This document shows, piece after piece, positions 1 through 27,519 of a stretch of DNA of 58,943 nucleotides (the stretch's first letter is position 1; the number at the start of each line of letters is the position of its first letter). A program made the translations under genes and the position numbers. The notes under the pieces were generated by a model. It did not search any database and was not told the origin of the DNA. It saw only the letters and a program-made list of their open reading frames with translations. Source of the DNA: Utricularia gibba (Eukaryota; Streptophyta; Magnoliopsida; Lamiales; Lentibulariaceae); contig NEEC01000258.1 in the NCBI GenBank assembly GCA_002189035.1, positions 1 through 58,943 on the forward strand, written 5' to 3'.

Positions 1-32
1 ACTTACTTTATACTTGAGAAGGCGGTCTTTGG

Positions 33-345
33 GTGCACTTGGAACCGGAAAAAGATCAGCTTAGGCCTTGCCCAAAGTAAGTTGTAGCCCGGCAAAGAAA
101 GTGATGTATTTATTAACGTTCGGTTTTCGGTGTTGCCTACATGGTTTTTCAAGGAACAGCTTCTCGTTTTGTGGCGGCCAGTCTCGCTAGGAACTTGGTC
201 CGGGCCCGCGATTCTTTATGGCTCATGAGGACAAAAGGATGCAAATCGATGAATACAATGTTGCATTTGTTTAAATTGCGATATCACGTGCACCCCACAT
301 GATTTTTTCAACAACTTACTTTATACTTGAGCAGGCGGTCTTTGG
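33..345 (+). repeat. Reference monomer, family A (313 bp)
   Basis: An intact A copy. Diagnostic bases are cacttggaaccggaaaaag, atcagcttaggcc, tagcccggcaaagaaag, ttaacgttcgg, ggtgttgcc, ggaacagc, ctaggaac, cgggcccgcgattctttatgg, ggacaaaaggatgc and gatgaatacaatgttgc. Against family B it lacks the AATAAA hexamer because it reads AAGAAA. In zone 2 the A copies carry extra changes (atacaaatcaatg) absent here, so A has at least two lineages in the window. Confidence 0.85.
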
Positions 346-3300
346 GTGCACCTGGAACGGGACAAAGGTAAGGTTTGGCTTGCACCGAGAGTTAGTTGTA
401 GTCCGGCAAATAAAGTGATGTATTTATTATCGTTCGGTTTTTCGGGGGCTGCCTACATGGTTTTTCAAGGAACCGCTTCTCGTTTTGTGGCGGCCAGTCT
501 CGCTGGGAACTTGGTCCTTGACCCCGATTCTGTATGGCTCATGAGGTCAACTGGATGCAAATCGATTAAAAAAAATGATCCATTTGTTTAAATTATGATG
601 TCACGTGCACCCCACATGATTTTTTTAAAACTACTTTATACTGAGAGGCGGTCTTTGGGGCACTTGGAACCGGAAAAAGATCAGCTTAGGCCTTGGCCAA
701 AGTAAGTTGTAGCCCGGCAAAGAAAGTGATGTATTTATTAACGTTCGGTTTTCGGTGTTGCCTACATGGTTTTTCAAGGAACAGCTTCTCGTTTTGTGGC
801 GGCCAGTCTCGCTAGGAACTTGGTCCGGGCCGCGATTCTTTATGGCTCATGAGGACAAAAGGATGCAAATCGATGAAACAATGTGCATTTGTTTAAATTC
901 GATATCACGTGCACCCCACAATTTTTTCAACAACTTACTATACTTGAGAAGGCGGTCTTTGGGTGCACTTGGAACGGAAAAAGGTTTTGGCTTGTAGTTG
1001 TAGTCCGGCAAAAAAGTGATGTATTTATTATCGTTCGGTTTTCGGTTGCCTACATGGTTTTTCAAGGAACCGCTTCTCGTTTTGTGGCGGCCAGTCTCGC
1101 TGGAACTTGGTCCGCCCCGATTCTTTATGGCTCATGAGGTCAATGGATGCAAATCGATTAAAAAATGATGCATTTGTTTAAATTGATGTCACGTGCACCC
1201 CACATGATTTTTTCAACAACTTACTTTATACTTGAGAAGGCGGTCTTTGGGCACTTGGAACCGGAAAAAGATCAGCTTAGGCCTTGGCAAAGTAAGTTGT
1301 GCTGATGTTTTATTAACGTTCGGTTTTCGACATGGTTTTTCAAGGAACAGCTTCTCGTTTTGTGGCGGCCAGTCTCGCTAGTTGGTATTCTTTATGGCTC
1401 ATGAGCAAAAGGATGCAAATCGATGAATAAAATGTTGCATTTGTTTAAATTGCGATATCACGTGCACCCACATGATTTTTTCAACAACTTACTTTATACT
1501 TGAGCAGGCGGTCTTTGGGTGCACCTGGAACGGGACAAAGGTAAGTTGGCTTGCATTATTGTAGTCCGGCAAATAAAGTGATGTATTATTATCGTTCGGT
1601 TTTCGGGGGCTGCCTACATGGTTTTTCAAGGAACCGCTTCTCGTTTTGTGGCGGCCAGTCTCGCTGGGAACTTGGTCCTTGACCCCGATTCTGTATGGCT
1701 CATGAGGTCAACTGGATGCAAATCGATTAAAAAAAATGATCCATTTGTTTAAATTATGATGTCACGTGCACCCCACATGATTTTTTTCAACTTACTTTAT
1801 ACTGAGAGGCGGTCTTGGGGGGCACTTGGAACGGAAAAAGATCAGCTTAGGCTTGGCCCAAAGTAAGTTGTAGCCCGGCAAAGAAAGTGATGTATTTATT
1901 AACGTTCGGTTTTCGTGTTGCCTACATGGTTTTTCAAGGAACAGCTTCTCGTTTTGTGGCGGCCAGTCTCGCTAGGAACTTGGTCCGGGCCGCGATTCTT
2001 TATGGCTCATGAGGACAAAAGGATGCAAATCGATGAATAAATGTTGCATTTGTTTAAATTGCGATATCACGTGCACCCACATGATTTTTTCAACAACTTA
2101 CTTTATACTTGTCTTGGGCACTGGAACGGGACAAAGGTTTTGGCTTGCAAAGAAGTTAGTTGTAGTCCGGCAAATAAAGTGATGTATTTATTATCGTTCG
2201 GTTTTCGGGGGCTGCCTACATGGTTTTTCAAGGAACCGCTTCTCGTTTTGTGGCGGCCAGTCTCGCTGGGAACTTGGTCCTTGACCCCGATTCTGTATGG
2301 CTCATGAGGTCAACTGGCAAATCGATTAAAAAAAATGATATTTGTTTAAATTACGATGTCACGTGCACCCCACATGATTTTTTCAACAACTTACTTTATA
2401 CTTGAGAGGCGGTCTTCACTTGGAACCGGAAAAAGATCAGCTTAGGCCTTGGCCCAAAGTAAGTTGTAGCCCGGCAAAGAAAGTGATGTATTTATTAACG
2501 TTCGGTTTTCGGTGTGCCTACATGGTTTTTCAAGGAACAGCTTCTCGTTTTGTGGCGGCCAGTCTCGCTAGGAACTTGGTCCGGGCCCGCGATTCTTTAT
2601 GGCTCATGAGGACAAAAGGATGCAAATCGATGAATACAATGTTGCATTTTTTAAATTGCGATATCACGTGCACCCACATGATTTTTTCAACAACTTACTT
2701 TATACTTGAGAGGCGGTCTTTGGGTGCACCTGGAACGGGACAAAGGTAAGGTTTGGCTTGCCGAGAGTTAGTTGTAGTCCGGCAAAAAAGTGATGTATTT
2801 ATTATCGTTCGTTTTCGGGGCTGCCTACATGGTTTTTCAAGGAACCGGTTTTGTGGCGGCCAGTCTCGCTGGGAACTTGGTCCTTGACCCGATTCTGTAT
2901 GGCTCATGAGGTCAACTGGATGCAAATCGATTAAAAAAAATGATTTTGTTTAAATTTGTCACGTGCACCCCACATGATTTTTTATTACTTTATACTTCTT
3001 TTGGAACCGGAAAAAGGTCAGCTTAGGCTTGAAAGTAAGTTGTAGCCCGGCAAAGAAAGTGATGTATTTATTAACGTTCGGTTTTCGGTGTTGCCTACAT
3101 GGTTTTTCAAGGAACAGCTTCTCGTTTTGTGGCGGCCAGTCTCGCTAGGAACTTGGTCGCCCCGATTCTTTATGGCTCATGAGGTCAAAGGATGCAAATC
3201 GATGAAGTTGCATTTGTTTAAATTGCGATATCACGTGCACCCACATGATTTTTTCAACAACTTACTTTATACTTGAGGAGGCGGTCTTTGGGGCACTTGG

Positions 3301-3412
3301 AACGGAAAAAGATTTAGGCTTGCGTAAGTTGTAGCCCGGCAAATAAAGTGATGTATTTATTAACGTTCGGTTTTCCCTACATGGTTTTTCAAGGAACCGC
3401 TTCTCGTTTTGT

Positions 3413-5047
3413 GGCGGCCAGTCTCGCTGGGAACTTGGTCTTCTTTATGGCTCATGAGGGGATGCAAATCGATCCATTTGTTTAAATTGCGATATCACGT
3501 GCACCCCACATGATTTTTTCAACAACTTACTTTATACTTGAGAGGCGGTCTTGGGCACTTCTTGCAACCGGCAAAAAGTGATGTACGTTCGGTTTTCTGG
3601 TTTTTCAAGGAACGCTTCTCGTTTTGTGGCGGCCAGTCTCGCTGGGAACTTGGTCCCCCGATTCTTATGGCTCATGAGGTCAACTGGATGCAAATCGATG
3701 CATTTGTTTAAATTATATGTCACGTGCACCCCACATGATTTTTTCACTTACTTTATACTTGAGAGGCGGTCTTGGGGGCACTTTAGGGCTTGGTTGTAGC
3801 CGGCAAATAAAGTGATGTATTTATTATCGTTCGGTTTTCGGGGTGCCTACATGGTTTTTCAAGGTTCTCGTTTTGTGGCGGCCAGTCTCGCTGGGAACTT
3901 GGTACCCCGATTCTGTATGGCTCATGAGGTCAACTGGATGCAAATCGATTAAAAAAAATGATGCATTTGTTGTCACGTGCACCCACATGATTTTTTCAAC
4001 AACTTACTTTATACTTGAGAAGGCGGTCTTTGGGCACTTGGAACCGGAAAAAAGGCTTAGAAAGTAAGTTGTAGCCCGGCAAAAAAGTGATGTATTTATT
4101 AACGTTCGGTTTTCGGGTGCCTACATGGTTTTTCAAGGAACAGCTTCTCGTTTTGTGGCGGCCAGTCTCGCTGGAACTTGGTCCGCCCGCGATTCTTATG
4201 GCTCATGAGGTCAAAGGATGCAAATCGATCAATGATGCATTTGTTTAAATTGGATATCACGTGCACCCCACATGATTTTTTCAACAACTTACTTTATACT
4301 TGAGAAGGCGGTCTTTGGGTGCACTTGGAACCGGAAAAGGCTTAGGCTTGGAAAGTAAGTTGTAGCCGGCAAAGAAAGTGATGTATTGTTCGGTTTTCGG
4401 TGCCTACATGGTTTTTAGGAACCGCTTCTCGTTTTGTGGCGGCCAGTCTCGCTGGGAACATTCTGGAGAACTGGATGCAAATCGATCCATTTGTTTAAGA
4501 TTCACGTGCACCCCACATGATTTTTTAAAACAGAGTCTTGGGCACTTGGATCAGCTTTTGTAAGTTGTAGGGCAAAAAAGTGATGTATGGTTTTCCCTAC
4601 ATGGTTTTTCAAGGAACAGCTTCTCGTTTTGTGGCGGCCAGTCAGGAACTTGGTTTCTCATGAGGACAAAGGATGCAAATCGACAATGTTGCATTTGTTT
4701 AAATTGCGATGCTGATTTTTTCAACAACTTACTTTATACTTGAGGGCGGTCTTTACTTTTTAACAAAGAAAGTGATGTATTTATTAACGTTCGGTACATG
4801 GTTTTTCAAGGAACAGCTTCTCGTTTTGGCGGCCAGTCTCGCTAGGAACTTGATTCTTTATGGTGCAAATCCAATGTTGCATTTGTTTAAATTGCGATAT
4901 CACGTGCACCCCACATGATTTTTTCAACAACTTACTTTATACTTGTCCACTGGAATTTTGGCTTTTAGTTGTAAAATAAAGTGATGTATTTATTATCGTT
5001 CGGTTTTGCCTACATGGTTTTTCAAGGAACCGCTTCTCGTTTTGTGG
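3413..5047 (+). repeat. Cluster of shortened A/B monomers
   Basis: Core-to-core spacing falls to about 215, 249, 281, 280, 195, 197 and 217 bp. Conserved blocks remain while the segment between ggcggtctt and the AAAGTGATG block is largely missing. Near 4740-4800 almost the whole leader is gone. Intact copies stand further along the same zone, so the shortening is local. Confidence 0.75.
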
Positions 5048-7408
5048 CGGCCAGTCTCGCTGGGAACTTGGTCCTTGACCCCGATTCTGTATGGCTCATG
5101 AGGTCAACTGGATGCAAATCGATTAAAAAAATGATGCATTTGTTTAAATTGATGTCACGTGCACCCCACATGATTTTTTAACAACTACTTTATACTGAGG
5201 AGGCGGTCTTACTTGGAACCGGAAAAAGGTCAGCTTAGGCCTTGGCCCAAAGTAAGTTGTAGCCGGCAAAAAGTGATGTATTTATTATCGTTCGGTTTCG
5301 GTGCCTACATGGTTTTTCAAGGAACGCTTCTCGTTTTGTGGCGGCCAGTCTCGCTGGGAACTTGGTCCTTGGATTCTGTATGGCTCATGAGGTCAACTGG
5401 ATGCAAATCGATTAAAAAAAATGATGCATTTGTTTAAATTGTCACGTGCACCCCACATGATTTTTTCAACTTACTTTATACTTGAGAAGGCGGTCTTGGG
5501 CACTGGAACCGGAAAAAGGTCAGCTTAGGCCTTGGCCCAAAGTAAGTTGTAGCCCGGCAAAGAAAGTGATGTATTTATTAACGTTCGGTTTTCGGGTTGC
5601 CTACATGGTTTTCAAGGAACAGCTTCTCGTTTTGTGGCGGCCAGTCTCGCTAGGAACTTGATTCTTTATGGCTCATGAGGACAAAGGATGCAAATCGATG
5701 TGTTGCATTTGTTTAAATTGGATATCACGTGCACCCACATGATTTTTTCAAAACTTACTTTATACTTGAGTCTTTGGTGCACTTGGAACTTTAGGCTTTA
5801 AGTTGTAGCCCGGCAAAAAAGTGATGTATTTATTAACGTTCGGTTTTCGGGTTGCCTACATGGTTTTTCAAGGAACCGCTTCTCGTTTTGTGGCGGCCAG
5901 TCTCGCTGGAACTTGGTCATTCTTTATGGCTCATGAGGAGGATGCAAATCGACAATGGCATTTGTTTAAATTATGTCACGTGCACCTGATTTTTTCAACA
6001 ACTTACTTATACTTGAGTCTTTGGGGCACTTGGAACGGAAAAAGTCAGCTTAGGCTTGAAAGTAAGTTGTAGCCCGGCAAAAAAGTGATGTATTTATTAA
6101 CGTTCGGTTTTCGGGTTGCCTACATGGTTTTTCAAGTTCTCGTTTTGTGGCGGCCAGTCTCGCTGGAACTTGGTATTCTTTATGGCTCATGAGGTGGATG
6201 CAAATCGATGAAAAAAATGTTGCATTTGTTTAAATTGCGATATCACGTGCACCCCACATGATTTTTCAACAACTTACTTTATACTTGAGAAGGCGGTCTT
6301 TGGGTGCACTTGTTTTGGCTTGGCAAAGTAAGTTGTAGCCCGGCAAAGAAAGTGATGTATTTATTAACGTTCGGTTTTCGGGTTGCCTACATGGTTTTTC
6401 AAGGAACAGCTTCTCGTTTTGTGGCGGCCAGTCTCGCTGGAACTTGGTCCCCCCGATTCTTTATGGCTCATGAGGTCAAAGGATGCAAATCGATGAAAAA
6501 ATGTTGCATTTGTTTAAATTGCGATATCACGTGCACCCCACATGATTTTTTCAACAACTTACTTTATACTGAGGGCGGTCTTTGGGGCACTGGAACCGGA
6601 AAAAGGTAGCTTAGGCTTGCCCAAAGTAAGTTGTAGCCCGGCAAAGAAAGTGATGTATTTATTAAGTTCGTTTTCGGGCCTACATGGTTTTTCAAGGAAC
6701 GCTTCTCGTTTTGTGGCGCCAGTCTCGCTGGAACTTGGTCCCCCCGATTCTTTATGGCTCATGAGGGATGCAAATCGATTAAAAAAATGATGCATTTGTT
6801 TAAATTGCGATATCACGTGCACCCCACATGATTTTTTCAACAACTTACTTTATACTTGAGAAGGCGGTCTTTGGGTGCACTTGGAACTGGCCTTGCCAAA
6901 GTAAGTTGTAGCCCGGCAAAGAAAGTGATGTATTTATTACGTTCGGTTTTCGGTGTTGCCTACATGGTTTTTCAAGGAACAGCTTCTCGTTTTGTGGCGG
7001 CCAGTCTCGCTGGAACTTGGTCCGGATTCTTTATGGCTCATGAGGACAAGGATGCAAATCGATGAATACAATGTTGCATTTGTTTAAATTGCGATATCAC
7101 GTGCACCCCACATGATTTTTTCAACAACTTACTTTATACTTGAGCAGGCGGTCTTTGGGTGCACCTGGAACGGGACAAAGGTAAGGTTTGGCTTGCACCG
7201 AGAGTTAGTTGTAGCCGGCAAATAAAGTGATGTATTTATTATCGTTCGGTTTTCGGGGGCTGCCTACATGGTTTTTCAAGGAACCGCTTCTCGTTTTGTG
7301 GCGGCCAGTCTCGCTGGGAACTTGGTCCTTGACCCCGATTCTGTATGGCTCATGAGGTCAACTGGATGCAAATCGATTAAAAAAAATGATGCATTTGTTT
7401 AAATTACG

Positions 7409-7890
7409 ATGTCACGTGCACCCCACATGATGAGGAGGCGGTCTTCACTTGGTTTAACTGATGTATTTATCAACATGGTTTTTCAAGGAACAGCTTCTCG
7501 TTTTGTGGCGGCCAGTCTCGCCTTATTCATGGCTCATGAGGGATGCAAATCGCCCACGTGCACCCCACATGATTTGAGAAACTTGGAATCAAAGTTGTTG
7601 ATGTATTTATTAACGTTCGGTTTTCGGGCCTACATGGTTTTTCAAGGAACAGCTTCTCGTTTTGTGGCGGCCAGTCTCGCTAAACTTGGTTTCTTTATGG
7701 CTCATGAGGACAGGATGCAAATCGATTTGCATTTGTTTAACCACGTGCACCCCACATGATTTTTTCAACAACTTACTTTATACTTGAGCAGGCAGTCTTT
7801 AGTTGTAGTCCGGCAAATAAAGTGATGTATTTATTATCGTTCGGTTTTGCCTACATGGTTTTTCAAGGAACCGCTTCTCGTTTTGGCGGC
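7409..7890 (+). repeat. Cluster of strongly shortened monomers
   Basis: Two successive core-to-core distances are about 198 and 153 bp, half a monomer or less. Around 7433-7470 the region from CACATGAT to the central T-tract block is condensed to a few short pieces. The flanking monomer at about 7160-7410 is intact B. Confidence 0.75.
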
Positions 7891-9200
7891 CAGTCTCGCT
7901 GGGAACTTGACCCGATTCTGTATGGCTCATGAGGTCAACTGGATGCAAATCGATTAAAAAAAATGATGCATTTGTTTAAATTACGATGTCACGTGCACCC
8001 CACATGATTTTTTAACAACTACTTTATACTGAGGAGGCGGTCTTTGGGGGCACTTGGAACCGGAAAAATCAGCTTAGGCCTTGGCCCAAAGTAAGTTGTA
8101 GCCGGCAAAGAAAGTGATGTATTTATTAACGTTCGGTTTTCGGTGTGCCTACATGGTTTTTCAAGGAACAGCTTCTCGTTTTGTGGCGGCCAGTCTCGCT
8201 AGGAACTTGGTCTTCTTTATGGCTCATGAGGACAAAAGGATGCAAATCGCCATTTGTTTAAATTGCGATATCACGTGCACCCCACATGATTTTTTCAACA
8301 ACTTACTTTATACTTGAGCAGGCGGTCTTACCTTTTGGCTTGCCCGGTGATGTATTTATTATCGTTCGGTTTTCGGGGTGCCTACATGGTTTTTCAAGGA
8401 ACCGCTTCTCGTTTTGTGGCGGCCAGTCTCGCTGGAACTTGGTCCTTGACCCGATTCTGTATGGCTCATGAGGTCAACTGGATGCAAATCGATTAAAAAA
8501 ATGATGCATTTGTTTAAATTACGATGTCACGTGCACCCACATGATTTTTTCAACTACTTTATACTGAGAGGCGGTCTTTTGGAACCGGAAAAACTTAGGC
8601 AAAGTAAGTTGTAGCCCGGCAAAGAAAGTGATGTATTTATTAACGTTCGGTTTTCGGTGCCTACATGGTTTTCAAGGAACAGCTTCTCGTTTTGTGGCGG
8701 CCAGTCTCGCTAACTTGGTCACCCCGATTCTTATGGCTCATGAGGTCAACTGGATGCAAATCGATCATTTGTTTAAATTACGATGTCACGTGCACCCCAT
8801 GATTTTTTAACAACTACTTTATACTGAGAGGCGGTCACTTGGAACGGAAAAAGCTTAGGCTTGGCCCAAAGTAAGTTGTAGCCCGGCAAAGAAAGTGATG
8901 TATTTATTAACGTTCGGTTTTCGGGTTGCCTACATGGTTTTTCAAGGAACAGCTTCTCGTTTTGTGGCGGCTCTCGCTAACTTGGTCATTCTTTATGGCT
9001 CATGAGGACAAAGGATGCAAATCGATCCATTTGTTTAAATTGCGATCACGTGCACCCCACATGATTTTTTCAACAACTTACTTTATACTTGAGAAGGCGG
9101 TCTTTGGGTGGAACTTTAGGCTTGCTTGTTGATGTATTTATTAACGTTCGGTTTTCGGGTTGCCTACATGGTTTTTCAAGGAACAGCTTCTCGTTTTGTG

Positions 9201-9789
9201 GCGGCCAGTCTCGCTGAACTTGGTCTGATTCTTTATGGCTCATGAGGGATGCAAATCGACCATTTGTTTAAATTGCGATATCACGTGCACCCCACATGAT
9301 TTTTTCAACAACTTACTTTATACTTGAGGAGGCGACTTGGAACCAGCTTAAAAGTAAGTTGTAGCCCGGCAAAGAAAGTGATGTATTTATTAACGTTCGG
9401 TTTTCGGGTTGCCTACATGGTTTTTCAAGGAACAAGTCTCGCTAGGAACTTGATTCTTATGGCTCATGAGGGGATGCAAATCGATGGCATTTGTTTAAAT
9501 TATATCACGTGCACCCCACATGATTTTTTCAACAACTTACTTTATACTTGTCTTTGGTGCACTGGAACCTTTAGTTGTAGGGCAAAAAGTGATGTATTTA
9601 TTGTTCGGTTTTCACATGGTTTTTCAAGGAACCGCTTCTCGTTTTGTGGCGGCCAGTCTCGCTGGGAACTTGGTCCCCCGATTCTTATGGCTCATGAGGT
9701 CAACTGGATGCAAATCGATTACCATTTGTTTAAATTACGATGTCACGTGCACCCCACATGATTTTTTCAACAACTTACTTTATACTTGA
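9201..9789 (+). repeat. Shortened monomers, one lacking the core block
   Basis: The copy near 9420-9460 reads ggaacaagtctcgct. It has lost CTTCTCGTTTTGTGGCGGCC, which nearly all other copies keep. The next copy has only ttgttcgg in place of the usual ttattaacgttcgg. Spacing of the cores here is about 210-250 bp. Confidence 0.7.
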
Positions 9790-10329
9790 CGGTCTTGCAC
9801 TTGTTTAAAAGTAAGTTGTAGCCGGCAAATAAAGTGATGTATTTATTATCGTTCGGTTTTCGTGCCTACATGGTTTTTCAAGGAACCGCTTCTCGTTTTG
9901 TGGCGGCCAGTCTCGCTGGGAACTTGGTCCCCGATTCTTATGGCTCATGAGGTCAACTGGATGCAAATCGATTAAAAAAATGATGCATTTGTTTAAATTG
10001 ATGTCACGTGCACCCCACATGATTTTTTCTACTTTATACTGAGGAGCGGTCTTGGGGCACTTGGAACCGGAAAAAGATCAGCTTAGGCCTTGGCCCAAAG
10101 TAAGTTGTAGCCCGGCAAAGAAAGTGATGTATTTATTAACGTTCGGTTTTCGGTGTTGCCTACATGGTTTTTCAAGGAACAGCTTCTCGTTTTTGGCGGC
10201 CAGTCTCGCTAGGAACTTGGTCCGATTCTTTATGGCTCATGAGGACAAAAGGATGCAAATCGATGAATACAATGTTGCATTTGTTTAAATTGCGATATCA
10301 CGTGCACCCCACATGATTTTTTCAACAAC

Positions 10330-10760
10330 TTACTTTATACTTGAGCTCTTTGGGTGCACCTGGAACGGGACCTTGGAGAGTTAGTTGTAAAATAAAGTGA
10401 TGTATTTATTATCGTTCGGTTTTGCCTACATGGTTTTTCAAGGAACAGTCTCGCTGGGAACTTAATTCTGTATGGCTCATGAGGTCAAGGATGCAAATCG
10501 ATCATTTGTTTACCACCCACATGATTTGAGAACTTGGAACCGGAAAAAGCAGCTTAGAAGTAAGTTGTAGCCCGGCAAAAAGTGATGTATTTATTAACGT
10601 TCGGTTTTCGGGTTGCCTACATGGTTTTTCAAGGAACAGCTTCTCGTTTGTGGCGGCCAGTCTCGCTGGAACTTGGTCCCCCGATTCTTGGCTCATGAGG
10701 TCAAGGATGCAAATCGATCATTTGTTTAAATCACGTGCACCCCACATGATTTTTTCAACT
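10330..10760 (+). repeat. Shortened monomers with core deletion and lost CACGTG
   Basis: Near 10440-10460 the text reads ggaacagtctcgctggg, without the core block. Near 10505-10530 it reads ttaccacccacatgatttgag, which lacks CACGTG and the TTTATACTTG block. These are among the few places in zone 1 where normally invariant blocks are missing. Confidence 0.7.
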
Positions 10761-13700
10761 TACTTTATACTGAGAGGCGGTCCACTTGGAATTTAGGCTT
10801 GTAAGTTGTAGTCCGGCAAATAAAGTGATGTATTTATTATCGTTCGTTTTGCCTACATGGTTTTTCAAGGAACCGCTTCTCGTTTTGTGGCGGCCAGTCT
10901 CGCTGGGAACTTGGTCCTTGGATTCTCTCATGAGGTCAACTGGATGCAAATCGATTTGATGCATTTGTTTAAATTATGATGTCACGTGCACCCCACATGA
11001 TTTTTTAACAACTACTTTATACTGAGGAGGCGGTCTTGGGGGCACTTGGAACGGAAAAAGATCAGCTTAGGCCTTGGCCCAAAGTAAGTTGTAGCCCGGC
11101 AAAGAAAGTGATGTATTTTAACGTTCGGTTTTCGGTGCCTACATGGTTTTTCAAGGAACAGCTTCTCGTTTTGTGGCGGCCAGTCTCGCTGGAACTTGGT
11201 CCCCCGCGATTCTTTATGGCTCATGAGGACAAAAGGATGCAAATCGATGAATTTGCATTTGTTTAAATTGCGATATCACGTGCACCCCACATGATTTTTT
11301 CAACAACTTACTTTATACTTGAGAGGCGGTCTTTGGGGGCACTGGAACGGGAAAAGGCAAAGTAGTTGTAGCCGGCAAATAAAGTGATGTATTTATTATC
11401 GTTCGGTTTTCGGGGTGCCTACATGGTTTTTCAAGGAGCTTCTCGTTTTGTGGCGGCCAGTCTCGCTGGGAACTTGGTCCTTGACCCCGATTCTGTATGG
11501 CTCATGAGGTCAACTGGATGCAAATCGATTAAAAAAAATGATGCATTTGTTTAAATTACGATGTCACGTGCACCCCACATGATTTTTTCAACATACTTTA
11601 TACTGAGAGGCGGTCTTGGGCACTTGGAACCGGAAAAAGATCAGCTTAGGCCTTGGCCCAAAGTAAGTTGTAGCCCGGCAAAGAAAGTGATGTATTTATT
11701 AACGTTCGGTTTTCGGGTTGCCTACATGGTTTTTCAAGGAACAGCTTCTCGTTTTGGCGGCCAGTCTCGCTAGGAACTTGGTGGCTATGGCTCATGAGGA
11801 CAAAAGGATGCAAATCGATCATTTGTTTAAATTACACGTGCACCCCACATGATTTTTTTAACAACTACTTTATACTGAGAGGCGGTCTTGGGGGCACTTG
11901 GAACGGAAAAAGGTTTAGAAAGTAAGTTGTAGTCCGGCAAATAAAGTGATGTATTTATTATCGTTCGGTTTTCGGGGGCTGCCTACATGGTTTTTCAAGG
12001 AACCGCTTCTCGTTTTGTGGCGGCCAGTCTCGCTGGGAACTTGGTCCTTGACCCCGATTCTGTATGGCTCATGAGGTCAACTGGATGCAAATCGATTAAA
12101 AAAAATGATGCATTTGTTTAAATTATGATGTCACGTGCACCCCACATGATTTTTTAACAACATACTTTATACTGAGGAGGCGGTCTTGGGGGCACTTGGA
12201 ACCGGAAAAAGATCAGCTTAGGCCTTGGCCCAAAGTAAGTTGTAGCCCGGCAAAAAGTGATGTATTTATTAACGTTCGGTTTTCGGTGTTGCCTACATGG
12301 TTTTTCAAGGAACAGCTTCTCGTTTTGTGGCGGCCAGTTCGCTAGGAACTTGGTCCGGGCCCGCGATTCTTTATGGCTCATGAGGACAAAAGGATGCAAA
12401 TCGATGAATACAATGTTGCATTTGTTTAAATTGCGATATCACGTGCACCCCACATGATTTTTTCAACAACTTACTTTATACTTGAGCAGGCGGTCTTTGC
12501 ACTGGAACGGACAAAGGTAAGTTTGGCTTGCAAGTTAGTTGTAGTCCAAATAAAGTGATGTATTTATTATCGTTCGGTTTTCGGGGTGCCTACATGGTTT
12601 TTCAAGGCTTCTCGTTTTGTGGCGGCCAGTCTCGCTGGGAACTTGGTCCTTGAGATTCTGTATGGCTCATGAGGTCAACTGGATGCAAATCGATTAAAAA
12701 AAATGATGCATTTGTTTAAATTATATGTCACGTGCACCCCACATGATTTTTTCAACTACTTTATACTTGAGAAGGCGGTCTTTGGGTGCACTTGGAACCG
12801 GAAAAAGATCAGCTTAGGCTTGAAAGTAAGTTGTAGCCGGCAAGAAAGTGATGTATTTATTACGTTCGGTTTTCGGTTGCCTACATGGTTTTTCAAGGAA
12901 CAGCTTCTCGTTTTGTGGCGGCCAGTCTCGCTGGAACTTGGTCATGGCTCATGAGGACAAAAGGATGCAAATCGATCAATGTTGCATTTGTTTAAATTGC
13001 GATTCACGTGCACCCCACATGATTTTTCAACAACTTACTTTATACTTGAGCAGGCGGTCACTGGATCTTGCTCGGCAAATAAAGTGATGTATTTATTATC
13101 GTTCGGTTTTCGGGGGCTGCCTACATGGTTTTTCAAGGAACGCTTCTCGTTTTGTGGCGGCCAGTCTCGCTGGAACTTGGTCCTTGACCCCGATTCTGTA
13201 TGGCTCATGAGGTCAACTGGATGCAAATCGATTAAAAAAAATGATGCATTTGTTTAAATTACGATGTCACGTGCACCCCACATGATTTTTTTAACAACAT
13301 ACTTTATACATGAGGAGGCGGTCTTGGGGGCACTTGGAACCGGAAAAAGATCAGCTTAGGCTTGGCCCAAAGTAAGTTGTAGCCCGGCAAAGAAAGTGAT
13401 GTATTTATTAACGTTCGGTTTTCGGTGTTGCCTACATGGTTTTTCAAGGAACAGCTTCTCGTTTTGTGGCGGCCAGTCTCGCTGGAACTTGGTCCCCGCG
13501 ATTCTTTATGGCTCATGAGGTCAACTGGATGCAAATCGATGCATTTGTTTAAATTGATGTCACGTGCACCCACATGATTTTTTCAACAACTTACTTTATA
13601 CTGAGAGGCGGTCTTAGGAACGGAAAAAGGTTTAGGCTTGGCCCAAAGTAAGTTGTAGCCGGCAAAAAATGATGTACGTTCGGTTTTCGTGCCTACATGG

Positions 13701-14569
13701 TTTTTCAAGGAACCGCTTCTCGTTTTGTGGCGGCCAGTCTCGCTAACTTGGTCCTTGACCCGATTCTATGGCTCATGAGGTCAACTGGATGCAAATCGAT
13801 TACATTTGTTTAAATTACGATGTCACGTGCACCCCACATGATTTTTTTAACAACTACTTTATACTTGAGAGGCGGTCTTGGGGGCACTTGGAACCGGAAA
13901 AAGATCAGCTTAGGCCTTGCCCAAAGTAAGTTGTAGCCCGGCAAAGAAGTGATGTATTTATTAACGTTCGGTTTTCGGGTTGCCTACATGGTTTTTCAAG
14001 GAACAGCTTCTCGTTTTGTGGCGGCCAGTCTCGCTGGAACTTGGTCCGGATTCTTATGGCTCATGAGGTCAACTGGATGCAAATCGATTGCATTTGTTTA
14101 CACGTGCACCCCACATGATTTTTTTGGAGCGGTCTTTGGGGCACTTGGAACCGGAAAAAGATCAGCTTAGGCCTTGGCCCAAAGTAAGTTGTAGCCCGGC
14201 AAAGAAGTGATGTATTTATTACGTTCGGTTTTCGGTGCCTACATGTTTTTCTTCTCGTTTTGTGGCGGCCAGTCTCGCTAGGAACTTGGTCGGGCCCGCG
14301 ATTCTTTATGGCTCATGAGGACAAAAGGATGCAAATCGATGAATACAATGTTGCATTTGTTTAAATTGCGATATCACGTGCACCCCACATGATTTTTTCA
14401 ACAACTTACTTTATACTTGAGCAGGCGGTCTTTGGGTGCACCTGGAACGGGACAAAGGTCTTGCCGAGAGTTAGTTGTAGTCCGGCAAATAAAGTGATGT
14501 ATTTATTATCGTTCGGTTTTCGGGGGCTGCCTACATGGTTTTTCAAGGAACCGCTTCTCGTTTTGTGGC

Positions 14570-14815
14570 GGCCAGTCTTTGGGATTCTGTATGCTCATGA
14601 GGTCAAGGATGCAAATCGATCATTTGTTTAACACGTGCACCCCACATGAGTCACTTGTGACCGTTCGGTACATGGTTTTTCAAGGCTTCTCGTTTAGTCT
14701 CGCTGGGAACTTGGTCGTTCTGTATGGCTCATGAGGTCAAATGCAAATCGATCATTTGTTTAAATTGATGTCACGTGCACCCACATGATTTTTTAACAAC
14801 TTACTTTATACTTGA
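14570..14815 (+). repeat. Shortest monomer of the window (~124 bp core to core)
   Basis: Between the core at 14570 and the next partial core at 14694 only about 124 bp remain. The sequence runs cacatgagtcacttgtgacc and then gttcggtacatgg, so the 150 bp or so that normally separate these blocks are reduced to a few bases. The second core is itself damaged (cttctcgtttagtctcgct). Confidence 0.75.
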
Positions 14816-17361
14816 GAGGCGGTCTTACTTGGAACGGGCTTAGGCCTTTAAGTTGTAGCCCGGCAAAGAAAGTGATGTATTTATTAGTTCGGTTTTCGGG
14901 TTGCCTACATGGTTTTTCAAGGAACGCTTCTCGTTTTGTGGCGGCCAGTCTCGCTGGGAACTTGGTCCGCCCCGATTCTATGGCTCATGAGGTCAACTGG
15001 ATGCAAATCGATCATTTGTTTAAATTGATGTCACGTGCACCCCACATGATTTTTTCAACAACTTACTTTATACTGAGCGGTCTTGGGCACTTGGAACGGA
15101 AAAGGCTTAGGCAAAGTAAGTTGTAGTCAAATAAAGTGATGTATTTATTATCGTTCGGTTTTCGGGGGCTGCCTACATGGTTTTTCAAGGAACCGCTTCT
15201 CGTTTTGTGGCGGCCAGTCTCGCTGGGAACTTGGTCCTTGACCCGATTCTGTATGGCTCATGAGGTCAACTGGATGCAAATCGATTAAAAAAAATGATGC
15301 ATTTGTTTAAATTGATGTCACGTGCACCCCACATGATTTTTTTAACAACTGAGGAGGCGGTTTGGGGCACTTGGAACCGGAAAAAGATCAGCTTAGGCCT
15401 TGGCCCAAAGTAAGTTGTAGCCCGGCAAAGAAAGTGATGTATTTATTAACGTTCGGTTTTCGGTGTTGCCTACATGGTTTTTCAAGGAACAGCTTCTCGT
15501 TTTGTGGCGGCCAGTCTCGCTAGGAACTTGATTCTTTATGGCTCATGAGGACAAAAGGATGCAAATCGATTGTTGCATTTTTTTAAATTGCGATATCACG
15601 TGCACCCCACATGATTTTTTCAACAACTTACTTTATACTTGAGAGGCGGTCTTTGGGTGCACCTGGAACGGACAAAGCTTGCGAGAGTAGTTGTAGTCCG
15701 GCAAATAAAGTGATGTATTTATTATCGTTCGGTTTTCGGGGTGCCTACATGGTTTTTCAAGGACCGCTTCTCGTTTTGTGGCGGCCAGTCTCGCTGGGAA
15801 CTTGGTCCTTGACCCGATTCTGTATGGCTCATGAGGTCAACTGGATGCAAATCGATTAAAAAAAAATGATGCATTTGTTTAAATTGATGTCACGTGCACC
15901 CCACATGATTTTTTTAATACTTTATACATGAGGAGGCGGTCTTGGGGCACTTGGGAAAAAGTCAGCTTAGGCCTTGGCCCAAAGTAAGTTGTAGCCCGGC
16001 AAAGAAAGTGATGTATTTATTAACGTTCGGTTTTCGGTGTTGCCTACATGGTTTTTCAAGGAACAGCTTCTCGTTTTGTGGCGGCCAGTCTCGCTCTTGG
16101 TCCGCCCGATTCTTTATGGCTCATGAGGCAATGGATGCAAATCGATCATTTGTTTAAATTGATTCACGTGCACCCACATGATTTTTTCAACTTACTTTAT
16201 ACTGAGGAGGCGGTCTTGGGGCACTTGGAACCGGAAAATCAGCTTAGGCCTTGGCCCAAAGTAAGTTGTAGCCGGCAAATAAAGTGATGTATTTATTATC
16301 GTTCGGTTTTCGGGGGCTGCCTACATGGTTTTTCAAGGAACGCTTCTCGTTTTGTGGGGCCAGTCTCGCTGGGAACTTGGTCCCCCGATTCTGTATGGCT
16401 CATGAGGTCAAAGATGCAAATCGATTAAAAAAAATGATGCATTTGTTTAAATTGATGTCACGTGCACCCCACATGATTTTTTCAACTTACTTTATACATG
16501 AGGAGGCGGTCTTGGGGGCACTTGGAACGGAAAAAGATCAGCTTAGGCCTTGGCCAAAGTAAGTTGTAGCCCGGCAAAGAAAGTGATGTATTTATTATCG
16601 TTCGGTTTTCGGGTTGCCTACATGGTTTTTCAAGGAACAGCTTCTCGTTTTGTGGCGGCCAGTCTCGCTAGGAACTTGGTCCGGCCCGCGATTCTTTATG
16701 GCTCATGAGGGATGCAAATCGATGAAACAATGTGCATTTGTTTAAATTGCGATATCACGTGCACCCCACATGATTTTTTCAACAACTTACTTTATACTTG
16801 AGCAGGCGGTCTTTGGGTGCACTGGAACGGGACAAAGGTAAGGTTTGGCTTGCAAGAGTAGTTGTAGTCCGGCAAATAAAGTGATGTATTTATTATCGTT
16901 CGGTTTTCGGGTGCCTACATGGTTTTTCAAGGAACGCTTCTCGTTTTGTGGGGCCAGTCTCGCTGGAACTTGACCCGATTCTTATGGCTCATGAGGTCAA
17001 CTGGATGCAAATCGATTAAAAAATGCACGTGCACCCCACATGATTTTTTAAACAGAGAGGCGGTCTTGGGGGCACTTGGAACCGGAAAAAGGCTTAGGCT
17101 TGGCCCAAAGTAAGTTGTAGCCCGGCAAAGAAAGTGATGTATTTATTAACGTTCGGTTTTCGGTTGCCTACATGGTTTTTCAAGGAACAGCTTCTCGTTT
17201 GTGGCGGCCAGTCTCGCTGGGAACTTGGTCCTTGACCCGATTCTATGGCTCATGAGGTCAACTGGATGCAAATCGATTAAAAAATGATTGCATTTGTTTA
17301 AATTATGATGTCACGTGCACCCCACATGATTTTTAACAACTTACTTTATACTGAGTCTTTG

Positions 17362-17664
17362 GCACTTGGAACCGGAAAAAGATCAGCTTAGGCCTTGGTA
17401 AGTTGTAGCCCGGCAAAGAAAGTGATGTATTTATTAACGTTCGGTTTTCGGGTTGCCTACATGGTTTTTCAAGGAACAGCTTCTCGTTTTGTGGCGGCCA
17501 GTCTCGCTGGGAACTTGGTCCTTGACCCCGATTCTGTATGGCTCATGAGGTCAACTGGATGCAAATCGATTAAAAAAAATGATGCATTTGTTTAAATTAC
17601 GATGTCACGTGCACCCCACATGATTTTTTTAACAATACTTTATACTGAGAGGCGGTCTTGGGGG
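17362..17664 (+). repeat. Chimeric monomer A to B (switch 17,478-17,509)
   Basis: The left half is A (ccggaaaaagatcagc, agcccggcaaagaaag, ttaacg, ggaacagc). The right half is B (ctgggaac, cttgaccccgattctgtatgg, tcaactgg). The change lies between the a of aacagc and the ggg of ctgggaac. This is expected of unequal crossing over or gene conversion between copies, or of a mis-joined consensus. Confidence 0.75.
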
Positions 17665-17971
17665 GCACTTGGAACCGGAAAAGATCAGCTTAGGCCTTGG
17701 CCCAAAGTAAGTTGTAGTCCGGCAAATAAAGTGATGTATTTATTATCGTTCGGTTTTCGTGCCTACATGGTTTTTCAAGGAACCGCTTCTCGTTTTGTGG
17801 CGGCCAGTCTCGCTGGGAACTTGGTCCTTGACCCGATTCTGTATGGCTCATGAGGTCAACTGGATGCAAATCGATTAAAAAAAATGATGCATTTGTTTAA
17901 ATTATGATGTCACGTGCACCCCACATGATTTTTCAAAACTTACTTTATACATGAGGAGGCGGTCTTGGGGG
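17665..17971 (+). repeat. Chimeric monomer A to B (switch 17,709-17,718)
   Basis: It starts as A through cccaaagtaag and is B from tagtccggcaaataaag onward. The switch is about 70 bp earlier in the monomer than in the preceding chimera, so the two chimeras did not arise by simple copying of one junction. Confidence 0.7.
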
Positions 17972-19882
17972 GCACTTGGAACCGAAAAAGTCAGCTTAGG
18001 CCTTGGCCCAAAGTAAGTTGTAGCCCGGCAAAGAAAGTGATGTATTTATTAACGTTCGGTTTTCGGTGTTGCCTACATGGTTTTTCAAGGAACAGCTTCT
18101 CGTTTTGTGCGGCCAGTCTCGCTAGGAACTTGGTCCGGGCCCGCGATTCTTTATGCTCATGAGGACAAAAGGATGCAAATCGATGAATACAATGTTGCAT
18201 TTGTTTAAATTGCGATATCACGTGCACCCCACATGATTTTTTTTCAACAACTTACTTTATACTTGAGCAGGCGGTCTTTGGTGCACCTGGAACGGGACAA
18301 AGGTAAGGTTTGGCTTGCACCGAGAGTTAGTTGTAGTCCGGCAAATAAAGTGATGTATTTATTATCGTTCGGTTTTCGGGGGCTGCCTACATGGTTTTTC
18401 AAGGAACCGCTTCTCGTTTTGTGGCGGCCAGTCTCGCTGGGAACTTGGTCCTTGACCCGATTCTGTATGGCTCATGAGGTCAACTGGATGCAAATCGATT
18501 AAAAAAAATGATGCATTTGTTAAATCACGTGCACCCCACATGATTTTTAAAACCTTTATACTGAGCGGTCTTGGGCACTTTTTAGGCAAAGTAAGTTGTA
18601 GCCCGGCAACGTTACATGGTTTTTCAAGGAACAGCTCTCGTTTTTGGCGGCCAGTCTCGCTGGGAACTTGACCCCGATTCTGTATGGCTCATGAGGTCAA
18701 ATGCAAATCGCATCACGTGCACCCACATGGAGAGGCGGTCTTGGCACTTGGAACCGGAAAAAGTCAGCTTAAAAGTAAGTTAGCCGGCAAAGAAAGTGAT
18801 GTATTTATTAACGTTCGGTTTTCGGTGTTGCCTACATGGTTTTTCAAGGAACAGCTTCTCGTTTTGTGGCGGCCAGTCTCGCTAGGAACTTGGTCCGGGC
18901 CCGATTCTTTATGGCTCATGAGGACAAAAGGATGCAAATCGATGAATACAATGATGCATTTGTTTAAATTATTCACGTGCACCCCACATGATTTTTTAAC
19001 AACTACTTTATACTTCTTGGGCACTTGGAACGGAAAAAGTAAGGCAAAGTAAGTTGTAGTCCGGCAAATAAAGTGATGTATTTATTATCGTTCGGTTTTC
19101 GGTTGCCTACATGGTTTTCAAGGAAGCTTCTCGTTTTGTGGCGCCAGTCTCGCTGGGAACTTGGTCCTTGATTCTGTATGGCTCATGAGGTCAACTGGAT
19201 GCAAATCGATTAAAAAAATGATGCATTTGTTTAAATTACGATGTCACGTGCACCCCACATGATTTTTTAACAACTTACTTTATACTGAGAGGCGGTCTTG
19301 GGGCACTTGGAACCGGAAAAAGTCAGCTTAGGCCTTGGCCAAAGTAAGTTGTAGCCCGGCAAAGTGATGTATTTATTATGTTCGGTTTTCGGTGTTGCCT
19401 ACATGGTTTTTCAAGGAACAGCTTCTCGTTTTGTGGCGGCCAGTCTCGCTAGGAACTTGGGGGCCCGCGATTCTTTATGGCTCATGAGGACAAAGGATGC
19501 AAATCGATGAATACAATGTTGCATTTGTTTAAATTGCGATATCACGTGCACCCCACATGATTTTTTCAACAACTTACTTTATACTTGAGCAGGCGGTCTT
19601 GGGCACCTGGAACGGGACAAAGTAAGTTTGGCTTGTAGTTGTAGTCCGGCAAATAAAGTGATGTATTTATTATCGTTCGGTTTTCGGGTGCCTACATGGT
19701 TTTTGGAACCTTCTCGTTTTGTGGCGGCCAGTCTCGCTGGGAACTTGGTCACCCGATTCTGTATGGCTCATGAGGAACTGGATGCAAATCGATTAAAAAA
19801 ATGATGCATTTGTTTAATTGATGTCACGTGCACCCCACATGATTTTTTCAACAACTTACTTTATACTGAGAGGCGGTTTTGG

Positions 19883-20188
19883 GTGCACTTGGAACCGGAA
19901 AAAGATCAGCTTGGCCTTGGCCCAAAGTAAGTTGTAGCCCGGCAAAGAAAGTGATGTATTTATTAACGTTCGGTTTTCGGTGGCCTACATGGTTTTTCAA
20001 GGAACAGCTTCTCGTTTTGTGGCGGCCAGTCTCGCTAGGAACTTGGTCCGACCCCGATTCTGTATGGCTCATGAGGTCAACTGGATGCAAATCGATTAAA
20101 AAAATGATGCATTTGTTTAAATGATTCACGTGCACCCCACATGATTTTTTCAACAACTTACTTTATACATGAGGAGGCGGTCTTTGGG
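19883..20188 (+). repeat. Chimeric monomer A to B (switch 20,050-20,061)
   Basis: A markers run to ctaggaacttggtccg and B markers begin with tgtatgg and tcaactgg. This is the latest switch point of the chimeras in this stretch. Confidence 0.7.
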
Positions 20189-20799
20189 GCACTTGGAACC
20201 GGAAAAGGTCAGCTTAGGCTTGCCAAGTAAGTTGTAGTCCGGCAAATAAAGTGATGTATTTATTATCGTTCGGTTTTCGGGGGCTGCCTACATGGTTTTT
20301 CAAGGAACCGCTTCTCGTTTTGTGGCGGCCAGTCTCGCTGGAACTTGGTCCTTGACCCCGATTCTGTATGGCTCATGAGGTCAACTGGATGCAAATCGAT
20401 TAAAAAAAATGATCATTTGTTTAAATTATGATGTCACGTGCACCCCACATGATTTTTTCAACAACTTACTTTATACTTGAGAGGCGGTCTTTGGGTGCAC
20501 TTGGAACCGGAAAAGATTTGGCCTTGGCCCAAAGTAAGTTGTAGCCCGGCAAAGAAAGTGATGTATTTATTAACGTTCGGTTTTCGGGGTTGCCTACATG
20601 GTTTTTCAAGGAACAGCTTCTCGTTTTGTGGCGGCCAGTCTCGCTGGGAACTTGGTCCTTGACCCCGATTCTGTATGGCTCATGAGGTCAACTGGATGCA
20701 AATCGATTAAAAAAAATGATGCATTTGTTTAAATTGATGTCACGTGCACCCCACATGATTTTTTCAACAACTTACTTATACTTGAGCAGGCGGTCTTTG
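20189..20799 (+). repeat. Two further A-to-B chimeric monomers at the zone 1/2 boundary
   Basis: The copy 20,189-20,494 changes from A to B around gtaagttgtagtccgg. The copy 20,495-20,799 changes after ggaacagc. From 20,800 on, B copies dominate and lengths return to about 310 bp. Confidence 0.65.
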
Positions 20800-21412
20800 G
20801 TGCACCTGGAACGGGACAAAGGTAGTTTAGGCTTGCACCGAGAGTTAGTTGTAGTCCGGCAAATAAAGTGATGTATTTATTATCGTTCGGTTTTCGGGGC
20901 TGCCTACATGGTTTTTCAAGGAACCGCTTCTCGTTTTGTGGCGGCCATCTCGCTGGGAACTTGGTCTTGACCCCGATTCTATGGCTCATGAGGTCAACTG
21001 GATGCAAATCGATTAAAAAAAATGATGCATTTGTTTAAATTATGATGTCACGTGCACCCCACATGATTTTTTCAACAACTTACTTTATACTTGAGCAGGC
21101 GGTCTTGGGTGCACTGGAACGGACAAAGTTTGGCTTGCACGAGAGTTAGTTGTAGTCCGGCAAATAAAGTGATGTATTTATTATCGTTCGTTTTCGGGGG
21201 CTGCCTACATGGTTTTTCAAGGAACCGCTTCTCGTTTGTGGCGGCCAGTCTCGCTGGGAACTGGTCCTTGACCCGATTCTGTATGGCTCATGAGGTCAAC
21301 TGGATGCAAATCGATTAAAAAAAAATGATGCATTTGTTTAAATTACGATGTCAAGTGCACCCCACATGATTTTTTAACAACATACTTTATACTGAGGAGG
21401 CGGTCTTGGGGG

Positions 21413-21715
21413 GCACTGGAACCGGAAAAAGATCAGCTTAGGCTTGGCCCAAAGTAGTTGTAGCCCGGCAAAGAAAGTGATGTATTTATTAACGTTCGGT
21501 TTCGGGTTGCCTACATGGTTTTTCAAGGAACAGCTTCTCGTTTGTGGCGGCCAGTCTCGCTGGAACTTGGTCCGACCCCGATTCTGTATGGCTCATGAGG
21601 TCAACTGGATGCAAATCGATTAAAAAAAATGATGCATTTGTTTAAATTATGATGTCACGTGCACCCACATGATTTTTTCAACAACTTACTTTATACTTGA
21701 GCAGGCGGTCTTTGG
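21413..21715 (+). repeat. A-type monomer 1 of zone 2 (A-to-B chimera)
   Basis: A leader and A centre (agcccggcaaagaaag, aacagc), then B from gaccccgattctgtatgg. It is preceded by a B copy with the CAAGTG variant at 21352-21357. The distance to the next A copy is 2,177 bp, about 7 monomers. Confidence 0.75.
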
Positions 21716-23589
21716 GTGCACCTGGAACGGGACAAAGGTAAGTTGGCTTGCACCGAGAGTTAGTTGTAGTCCGGCAAATAAAGTGATGTATTTATTATCG
21801 TTCGTTTCGGGGGCTGCCTACATGGTTTTTCAAGGAACCGCTTCTCGTTTTGTGGCGGCCAGTCTCGCTGGGAACTTGGTCCTTGACCCCGATTCTGTAT
21901 GGCTCATGAGGTCAACTGGATGCAAATCGATTAAAAAAAATGATGCATTTGTTTAAATTATGATGTCACGTGCACCCCACATGATTTTTTCAACAACTTA
22001 CTTTATACTTGAGCAGGCGGTCTTTGGGTGCACCTGGAACGGGACAAAGGTAAGGTTGGCTTGCACGAGAGTTAGTTGTAGTCCGGCAAATAAAGTGATG
22101 TATTTATTATCGTTCGTTTTCGGGGGCTGCCTACATGGTTTTTCAAGGAACCGCTTCTCGTTTTGGCGGCCAGTCTCGCTGGGAACTTGGTCCTTGACCC
22201 CGATTCTGTATGGCTCATGAGGTCAACTGGATGCAAATCGATTAAAAAAATGATGCATTTGTTTAAATTATGATGTCACGTGCACCCCACATGATTTTTT
22301 CAACAACTTACTTTATACTTGAGCAGGCGGTCTTTGGGTGCACCTGGAACGGGACAAAGGTAAGTTTGGCTTGCACGAGAGTTAGTTGTAGTCCGGCAAA
22401 TAAGTGATGTATTTATTATCGTTCGTTTTCGGGGGCTGCCTACATGGTTTTTCAAGGAACCGCTTCTCGTTTTGTGGCGGCCAGTCTCGCTGGGAACTTG
22501 GTCCTTGACCCCGATTCTGTATGGCTCATGAGGTCAACTGGATGCAAATCGATTAAAAAAAATGATGCATTTGTTTAAATTATGATGTCACGTGCACCCC
22601 ACATGATTTTTTCAACAACTTACTTTATACTTGAGCAGGCGGTCTTTGGGTGCACCTGGAACGGACAAAGGTAATGTTTGGCTTGCACCGAGAGTTAGTT
22701 GTAGTCCGGCAAATAAAGTGATGTATTTATTATCGTTCGGTTTTCGGGGCTGCCTACATGGTTTTTCAAGGAACCGCTTCTCGTTTGTGGCGGCCAGTCT
22801 CGCTGGGAACTTGGTCCTTGACCCGATTCTGTATGGCTCATGAGGTCAACTGGATGCAAATCGATAAAAAAAAATGATGCATTTGTTTAAATTATGATGT
22901 CACGTGCACCCCACATGATTTTTTCAACAACTTACTTTATACTTGAGCAGGCGGTCTTTGGGTGCACCTGGAACGGGACAAAGGTAAGTTTGGCTTGCAC
23001 CGAGAGTTAGTTGTAGTCCGGCAAATAAAGTGATGTATTTATTATCGTTCGGTTTTCGGGGGCTGCCTACATGGTTTTTCAAGGAACCGCTTCTCGTTTT
23101 GTGGCGGCCAGTCTCGCTGGGAACTTGGTCCTTGACCCCCGATTCTGTATGGCTCATGAGGTCAACTGGATGCAAATCGATTAAAAAAAATGATGCATTT
23201 GTTTAAATTATGATGTCACGTGCACCCCACATGATTTTTTCAACAACTTACTTTATACTTGAGCAGGCGGTCTTTGGGTGCACCTGGAACGGGACAAAGG
23301 TAATGTTTGGCTTGCACCGAGAGTTAGTTGTAGTCCGGCAAATAAAGTGATGTATTTATTATCGTTCGTTTTCGGGGGCTGCCTACATGGTTTTCAAGGA
23401 ACCGCTTCTCGTTTTGTGGCGGCCAGTCTCGCTGGGAACTTGGTCCTTGACCCCATTTCTGTATGGCTCATGAGGTCAACTGGATGCAAATCGAAAAAAA
23501 AAATGATGCATTTGTTTAAATTACGATGTCAAGTGCACCCCACATGATTTTTTTAACAACTACTTTATACTGAGGAGGCGGTCTTGGGG

Positions 23590-23893
23590 GCACTTGGAAC
23601 CGGAAAAAGATCAGCTTAGGCCTTGGCCCAAAGTAAGTTGTAGCCCGGCAAAGAAAGTGATGTATTTATTATCGTTCGGTTTTCGGGTTGCCTACATGGT
23701 TTTTCAAGGAACAGCTTCTCGTTTGTGGCGGCCAGTCTCGCTGGAACTTGGTCCGGCCCCGATTCTTTATGGCTCATGAGGACAAGGATACAAATCAATG
23801 AAAAAATGATGCATTTGTTTAAATTACGATATCACGTGCACCCCACATGATTTTTTCAACAACTTACTTTATACTTGAGCAGGCGGTCTTTGG
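23590..23893 (+). repeat. A-type monomer 2 of zone 2
   Basis: A markers from ccggaaaaagatcagc to ctttatgg, with ttatcg of B at the centre and atacaaatcaatg (23788 on) in place of the octamer. The upstream copy carries CAAGTG at 23530-23535. The next A copy is 1,232 bp away, about 4 monomers. Confidence 0.8.
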
Positions 23894-24821
23894 GTGCACC
23901 TGGAACGGGACAAAGAAGGTTTGGCTTGCACCGAGAGTTAGTTGTAGTCCGGCAAATAAAGTGATGTATTTATTATCGTTCGGTTTTCGGGGGCTGCCTA
24001 CATGGTTTTCAAGGAACCGCTTCTCGTTTTGTGGCGGCCAGTCTCGCTGGGAACTTGGTCCTTGACCCCGATTCTGTATGGCTCATGAGGTCAACTGGAT
24101 GCAAATCGATTAAAAAAAATGATGCATTTGTTTAAATTATGATGTCACGTGCACCCCACATGATTTTTTCAACAACTTACTTTATACTTGAGCAGGCGGT
24201 CTTGGTGCACCTGGAACGGGACAAAGGTAAGTTTGGCTTGCACCGAGAGTTAGTTGTAGTCCGGCAAATAAAGTGATGTATTTATTATCGTTCGTTTCGG
24301 GGGCTGCCTACATGGTTTTTCAAGGAACCGCTTCTCGTTTTGTGGCGGCCAGTCTCGCTGGGAACTTCCTTGACCCGATTCTGTATGGCTCATGAGGTCA
24401 ACTGGATGCAAATCGATAAAAAAATGATGCATTTGTTTAAATTATGATGTCACGTGCACCCCACATGATTTTTTCAACAACTTACTTTATACTTGAGCAG
24501 GCGGTCTTTGGGTGCACCTGGAACGGGACAAAGGTAATGTTTGGCTTGCACCGAGAGTTAGTTGTAGTCCGGCAAATAAAGTGATGTATTTATTATCGTT
24601 CGTTTTCGGGGGCTGCCTACATGGTTTTCAAGGAACCGCTTCTCGTTTTGTGGCGGCCAGTCTCGCTGGGAACTTGGTCCTTGACCCCGATTCTGTATGG
24701 CTCATGAGGTCAACTGGATGCAAATCGAATAAAAAAAATGATGCATTTGTTTAAATTACGATGTCACGTGCACCCCACATGATTTTTTAAACAACATTTA
24801 TACATGAGAGGCGGTCTTGGG

Positions 24822-25128
24822 GCACTTGGAACCGGAAAAAAGATCAGCTTAGGCCTTGGCCCAAAGTAAGTTGTAGCCCGGCAAAGAAAGTGATGTATTT
24901 ATTAACGTTCGGTTTTCGGGGCCTACATGGTTTTTCAAGGAACAGCTTCTCGTTTTGTGGCGGCCAGTTGCTAGGAACTTGGTCCGGACCCCGATTCTTT
25001 ATGGCTCATGAGGTCAAAAGGATGCAAATCAATGAATACAATGATGCATTTGTTTAAATTACGATGTCACGTGCACCCCACATGATTTTTTCAACAACTT
25101 ACTTTATACTTGAGCAGGCGGTCTTTGG
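24822..25128 (+). repeat. A-type monomer 3 of zone 2
   Basis: A markers throughout, with atgcaaatcaatg retaining the octamer but losing ATCGAT. The upstream B copy has cgaataaaaaaa but an intact CACGTG. The next A copy is 2,180 bp away, about 7 monomers. Confidence 0.8.
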
Positions 25129-27311: not shown

Positions 27312-27374
27312 GTGCACCTGGAACGGGACAAAGGTAAGGTTTGGCTTGCACCGAGAGTTAGTTGTAGTCCGGCA

Positions 27375-27394: not shown

Positions 27395-27440
27395 ATCGTT
27401 CGGTTTTCGGGGGCTGCCTACATGGTTTTTCAAGGAACCG

Positions 27441-27469: not shown

Positions 27470-27519
27470 GGGAACTTGGTCCTTGACCCCGATTCTGTAT
27501 GGCTCATGAGGTCAACTGG

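Follow-up and report, generated by a model that had tools for sequence, protein, structure and literature searches.

The window analysed here is the entire contig C10 (positions 1-58943, plus strand) of a Utricularia gibba assembly of 100.09 Mb in 516 contigs, and it consists from end to end of a satellite with a unit of ~314 bp. The units are arranged head-to-tail and belong to monomer families A and B, plus a family C within 47131-58943. The same satellite was found on at least six other contigs, 28-50 kb each (C38, C46, C54, C78, C90 and C484); this count is a lower bound, as the contig search scored the best candidates only. On the plus strand the window divides into three zones. Zone 1 (1..20799) holds about 75 shortened monomers in which A and B roughly alternate (the family changes at 55 of 75 steps, expectation 37), with deletions clustered on or near the columns that are diagnostic for A versus B. 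Its two outermost monomers are a truncated and almost intact A monomer at 1-284, with 39 diagnostic sites scored (33 A, 4 B, 1 other, 1 deleted), and at 285-601 the intact B monomer of the contig start, which carries B letters at 40 of 40 diagnostic sites. Zone 2 (20800..47130) is B-rich and mostly full-length, with one A monomer per few units. Zone 3 (47131..58943) is made up of family C of the same satellite in near full-length copies. Family C mixes some A letters with some B letters, and support for the own consensus is lower in C copies (mean 0.958) than in B copies (0.981). Family alternation is clearest in C484, a clean A-B dimer array of 53 A and 53 B monomers with a change of family at 104 of 106 neighbour steps; C90 resembles zone 2 in that it consists mainly of B, with A copies interspersed at intervals of a few units. 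A single satellite is found in two array architectures, regular A-B dimers (C484) and B-rich arrays (zone 2 and other contigs). Apart from the satellite, we noted on C515 (~183500-185900) a split mitochondrial-type cox1 whose frame extends into an apparent intron ORF, with motifs that we take to be of the LAGLIDADG type. Serines stand where phenylalanine is usual, presumably explicable by C-to-U RNA editing, and the best PDB match is 7jro, which we take to be plant complex IV; overall the gene resembles a land plant cox1.

The A and B consensus sequences rest solely on 71 A and 326 B monomers of the other contigs; the copies of the window were kept out because circularity was to be avoided. 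As input served 546 aligned monomers of 295-330 bp, other lengths being excluded; 86 of them fell into cluster A and 432 into cluster B before removal of the window copies, and 28 monomers of small clusters were left unused. When only monomers of the window were clustered by average linkage, A and B were lumped together, and this grouping was replaced by families defined on diagnostic columns and then by the reference from other contigs. Aligned to each other, A and B span 316 columns, namely 273 shared columns (S), 40 diagnostic substitutions (D) and 3 indels. Zone 1 was aligned to a cyclic form of this reference in which the A or the B letter counted as a match at D columns, so that the alignment is biased against detecting deletions there. 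Since a dropped base often fits two neighbouring columns, each count was carried out twice, with ties assigned on D or off D. The null consisted of the same event lengths placed randomly in a refilled template, in 40 uniform simulations and 40 with events of 1-2 bases placed in homopolymers. Monomers with <20 scored diagnostic sites were excluded from the per-monomer tables, which concerned 0 of 76 in zone 1, 0 of 84 in zone 2, 2 of 134 in C38, 2 of 113 in C54, 1 of 91 in C46, 0 of 106 in C78, 1 of 160 in C90 and 1 of 107 in C484.

The initial annotation had cited five short forms from zone 1, in each of which a base seemed to be lost where the families differ. All five are present on the plus strand, two of them offset by 1-2 bases from the positions originally given (5323 for 5321, 4195 for 4194). 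These are CAAAAAAG at 1009..1016 (A CAAAGAAAG, B CAAATAAAG), where the placement of the dropped base is unambiguous, CTGGAAC at 1100..1106 (A CTAGGAAC, B CTGGGAAC), CTTATGG at 4195..4201 (A CTTTATGG, B CTGTATGG), AACGC at 5323..5327 (A AACAGC, B AACCGC) and TTATTACG at 6934..6941 (A TTATTAACG, B TTATTATCG). The form GGAACGCTTC also occurs 16 times in C38 and 13 times in C46, where three of the four other forms are found 0-2 times; on these two contigs it could represent a true one-base variant.

Alignment to the A/B reference gave 719 deletion events in zone 1, which has lost 12-13% of its columns. With ties on D we counted 980 D losses (rate 0.326) and 1977 S losses (rate 0.096), a D/S ratio of 3.38; with ties off D there were 569 D losses (0.190) and 2384 S losses (0.116), a ratio of 1.63. 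The highest ratios among the simulations were 1.29 (uniform) and 1.33 (homopolymer) with ties on D, and 0.80 and 0.81 with ties off D, so that the observed ratio exceeded 80 of 80 random placements under both tie rules. The claim that deletions fall on A/B-diagnostic positions in a non-random manner is thereby confirmed, with 19-33% of D against 10-12% of S columns lost, and the even spread over diagnostic and shared columns that would speak against it was looked for and not found: the spread is uneven. Single-base events, 234 of 312 of which can be placed on a D column, have a D/S rate ratio of 20.5 with ties on D, where the two nulls do not exceed 2.6 and 4.4. The ratio drops to 0.38 with ties off D, the S rate then being the higher one, and the null maxima are lower still (0.31 and 0.11). 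At columns whose letters match no neighbour the placement is fixed, a property of 4 of the 40 D columns, and here single-base losses amount to 12 of 260 sites in these 4 D columns versus 33 of 7670 in 109 S columns (Fisher p 1.3e-8).

Deletion loss in zone 1 falls with distance from the D columns. S columns ≥6 positions from the nearest diagnostic column have lost 3.4-4.0%, compared with simulated means of 12.6-13.3%, and the loss at the middle column of shared runs is 31% at a run length of 1 and 2% at a length of ≥11. The initial annotation had further stated that agreed positions are kept. This is too strong: it largely holds for S columns far from diagnostic ones, at a loss of 3-4%, but not for short agreed islands between D sites, which are often lost; in absolute number most lost columns are S columns, though these lie near D columns. 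The shared column 8, which is situated within CCCC, accounts for 12 single-base losses. Deletions of 5-20 columns (210-211) contain a diagnostic column, substitution or indel, in 89-93% of cases (null means 66-67%), and deletions of ≥5 columns follow D density across 16 blocks (rho 0.86). For the 10-12 deletions of >20 columns in zone 1 no enrichment at diagnostic columns was found. Insertions in zone 1 amount to 61 runs with 181 letters; among 14 runs listed, 11 sit at 7431-7500 and resemble one misaligned stretch, and the other 3 have 1-2 letters. On the other contigs, too, single-base losses favour D columns if ties are set on D (raw ratio of 7-17), but the ratio falls below 1 if they are set off D.

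Letters that fit neither A nor B number 62-65 per 20,799 bases in zone 1 versus 78-79 per 26,331 in zone 2. Loss at D columns of zone 1 monomers climbs with the minority family's share of letters (rho 0.41, p 2e-4, 76 monomers), a correlation made noisier where loss is heavy, because mixing is scored on surviving letters. By their signature 19 of the 76 monomers are almost pure A or B, yet their mean D loss is 8.4 of 40. In zone 2 the loss of diagnostic bases is mild, with a mean of 5.2 of 40 in A monomers and 1.8 of 40 in B monomers, and the corresponding A/B means are 5.7/2.4 in C54, 10.7/2.0 in C46, 6.9/2.2 in C78 and 4.2/1.6 in C90. The rare A copies of B-rich arrays lose more D bases than the B copies in 5 of 6 arrays. 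The exception is C38, where 8 A monomers have a mean D loss of 2.3 and 124 B monomers one of 3.8, the B monomers also showing a heavy S-column loss of 16.1. Where the families are near equal in number, A and B lose near-equally (2.5/2.8 in C484, 13.1/12.7 in zone 1). The S-column loss of A is smaller than or similar to that of B in 4 of 5 arrays (zone 2, C54, C46, C78 and C90), C46 being the exception (A 8.4, B 2.1). The greater A loss in the five B-rich arrays looks like that of an outvoted minority, a pattern into which C38 does not fit. In C38, monomers with 5-15% minority letters (n=15, 14 of them B-type) have a mean shared-column loss of 48.8 and long losses; these degraded copies differ in character from those of zone 1.

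The pattern was also modelled with a toy consensus, in which noisy A-B reads were aligned with indels only and a base was retained only with more than half of the votes. When half of the reads were shifted by one monomer, D loss was 0.28, S loss 0.026 and the column profile correlated with that of zone 1 (rho 0.68). All five short forms arose in the first stretch of the output (GGAACGCTTC, CGCTGGAAC, TTATTACG, GGCAAAAAAG and ATTCTTATGG). Without shifted reads D loss dropped to 0.015 and the profile correlation to -0.05. D loss was 0.06 when mismatches were tolerated and a plurality vote was taken, and only 7-13% in a path-scored consensus based on edge counts; these low values under path-scored and plurality callers indicate that the pattern requires a particular kind of caller. 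Across 15 settings the profile rho was 0.52-0.72 in the 13 with a substantial proportion of shifted reads, 0.25 at 15% shifted reads and -0.05 at 0%. None of the 15 settings, including two-round consensus, reduced coverage, raised error and path-scored consensus, came up to zone 1 in long deletions: they produced 0-70 of 5-20 columns and 0 longer ones, against 211 and 10.

It is very probable, in our judgement, that the shortened copies of zone 1 are an artefact of assembly, a consensus of mixed copies with deletions that are absent from the organism's DNA. Five observations support this reading, which the initial annotation had already favoured and which holds up here: the enrichment of losses at D columns, the lack of extra substitutions, the link between loss and mixing, the bias against the minority family in 5 of 6 arrays and the simulated short forms. 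The true array of zone 1 would then consist of A and B monomers, probably in A-B dimers as in C484. Reads, or corrected reads, of unlike copies would have been stacked out of register, for instance with a shift of one monomer that puts A over B. At the sites where A and B differ neither base would clearly outvote the other, and the consensus caller may treat the conflict as indels and emit nothing. Agreed islands of less than ~10 bases between conflict sites would often be dropped too, and deletions of 5-20 columns might arise where conflict sites less than ~10 bases apart are handled as if they were one region. The stage at which this happened was presumably read correction or contig consensus, and the register shift was probably one monomer; given the alternation of A and B in zone 1, such a shift would often lay A over B, as needed.

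Satellite array edges are known to harbour degenerate copies, and zone 1 is a terminal part of the contig. It could represent a real, old array edge in decay, in which copies that are no longer homogenised gather random deletions, similar to deletion-rich satellite copies that favour array ends in an oomycete PacBio assembly and for which the authors dispute an assembly artefact (PMC7290008). Decay should, however, add substitutions, and foreign letters are no commoner in zone 1 than in zone 2, which disfavours it; moreover, the deletions shun long shared runs and heed family-diagnostic sites, contrary to random decay. As the contig both starts and stops within the satellite, its end is an end of the assembly and not a known array edge, and we regard a decaying edge as very unlikely. 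Plain sequencing error, i.e. homopolymer or other indel noise in a thinly covered contig end, is suggested by the many diagnostic drops that can also be read as the shortening of one family's run (4 of 40 D columns are unambiguous in this respect) and by the single-base losses at shared homopolymer column 8. The homopolymer null, however, yields no single-base D/S ratio above 4.4, where 20.5 was observed; with ties off D its maximum is 0.11 and the observed value 0.38. Single-base drops are found within AAA-G/T-AAA in 7 of 65 copies, and the centre of long shared runs loses just ~2%, all of which leaves sequencing error with very little probability.

Two further explanations place the deletions on or near diagnostic columns by biological means. 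Where A and B copies pair as heteroduplexes or gene-conversion intermediates, repair might excise both mispaired bases, and such deletions would likewise fall on diagnostic columns and in copies that are A/B mosaics. To our knowledge, mismatch repair does not normally drop both bases, and this process alone leaves unexplained both the minority bias in 5 of 6 B-rich arrays and the nearly equal loss of the two families in C484, each of which is explained by the counting of votes; we hold it to be extremely unlikely. In the second, the deletions would be real and A/B recombination would lose mismatched bases together with the short stretches between them, so that copies shrink toward their shared sequence, a course of events that we find exceedingly improbable. 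If the mixed-copy consensus is the correct reading, zone 1 is unfit for monomer catalogues, for the study of array-edge evolution and for estimates of deletion rates. The pattern would also offer a cheap test for other assemblies, in that deletions on or near family-diagnostic columns without extra substitutions would point to consensus mixing, and deletion-dominated satellite variation from noisy long-read assemblies may merit the same check.

Among the matches listed in our literature search, judged by titles and the openings of abstracts, we recognised no paper on satellites that lose disputed bases in this way or on the consensus programs responsible. NextDenovo defines low-score regions from positions with ≤50% support for the chosen allele, extended until ≥16 good positions are met (PMC11046930). 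Like zone 1 in the proposed reading, these regions are linked to repeats and join positions without a clear majority (PMC11046930). NextDenovo goes on to re-correct them, in which it differs, and there is no indication of its use for this assembly. The satellite PpSat1 of Phytophthora parasitica was described from a PacBio assembly, and 89% of its variants are deletions at few sites, favouring array ends (PMC7290008). It shares with zone 1 the tandem arrangement and the dominance of deletions, but its authors call the variation real and contest an assembly artefact; the PpSat1 deletions might deserve a check for family-diagnostic sites (PMC7290008). Also close to our case is the HiCanu paper, according to which the collapse of alleles yields a consensus that is a mosaic and contains frameshifting errors, while the permissive approach of Canu blends haplotypes and similar repeat copies (PMC7545148). 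The kind of error is thus already known, and zone 1 would be a clear instance of it inside one tandem array. The cases described there and in the Canu paper agree with our reading of zone 1 in that unlike copies are merged into a result that corresponds to no real copy and carries spurious indels (PMC7545148, PMC5411767). They concern alleles and repeat copies in general, whereas in zone 1 neighbouring monomers of one tandem array are involved, and in contrast to the mosaics described there the disputed base is often omitted instead of one version being picked, a loss that spans 20 kb.
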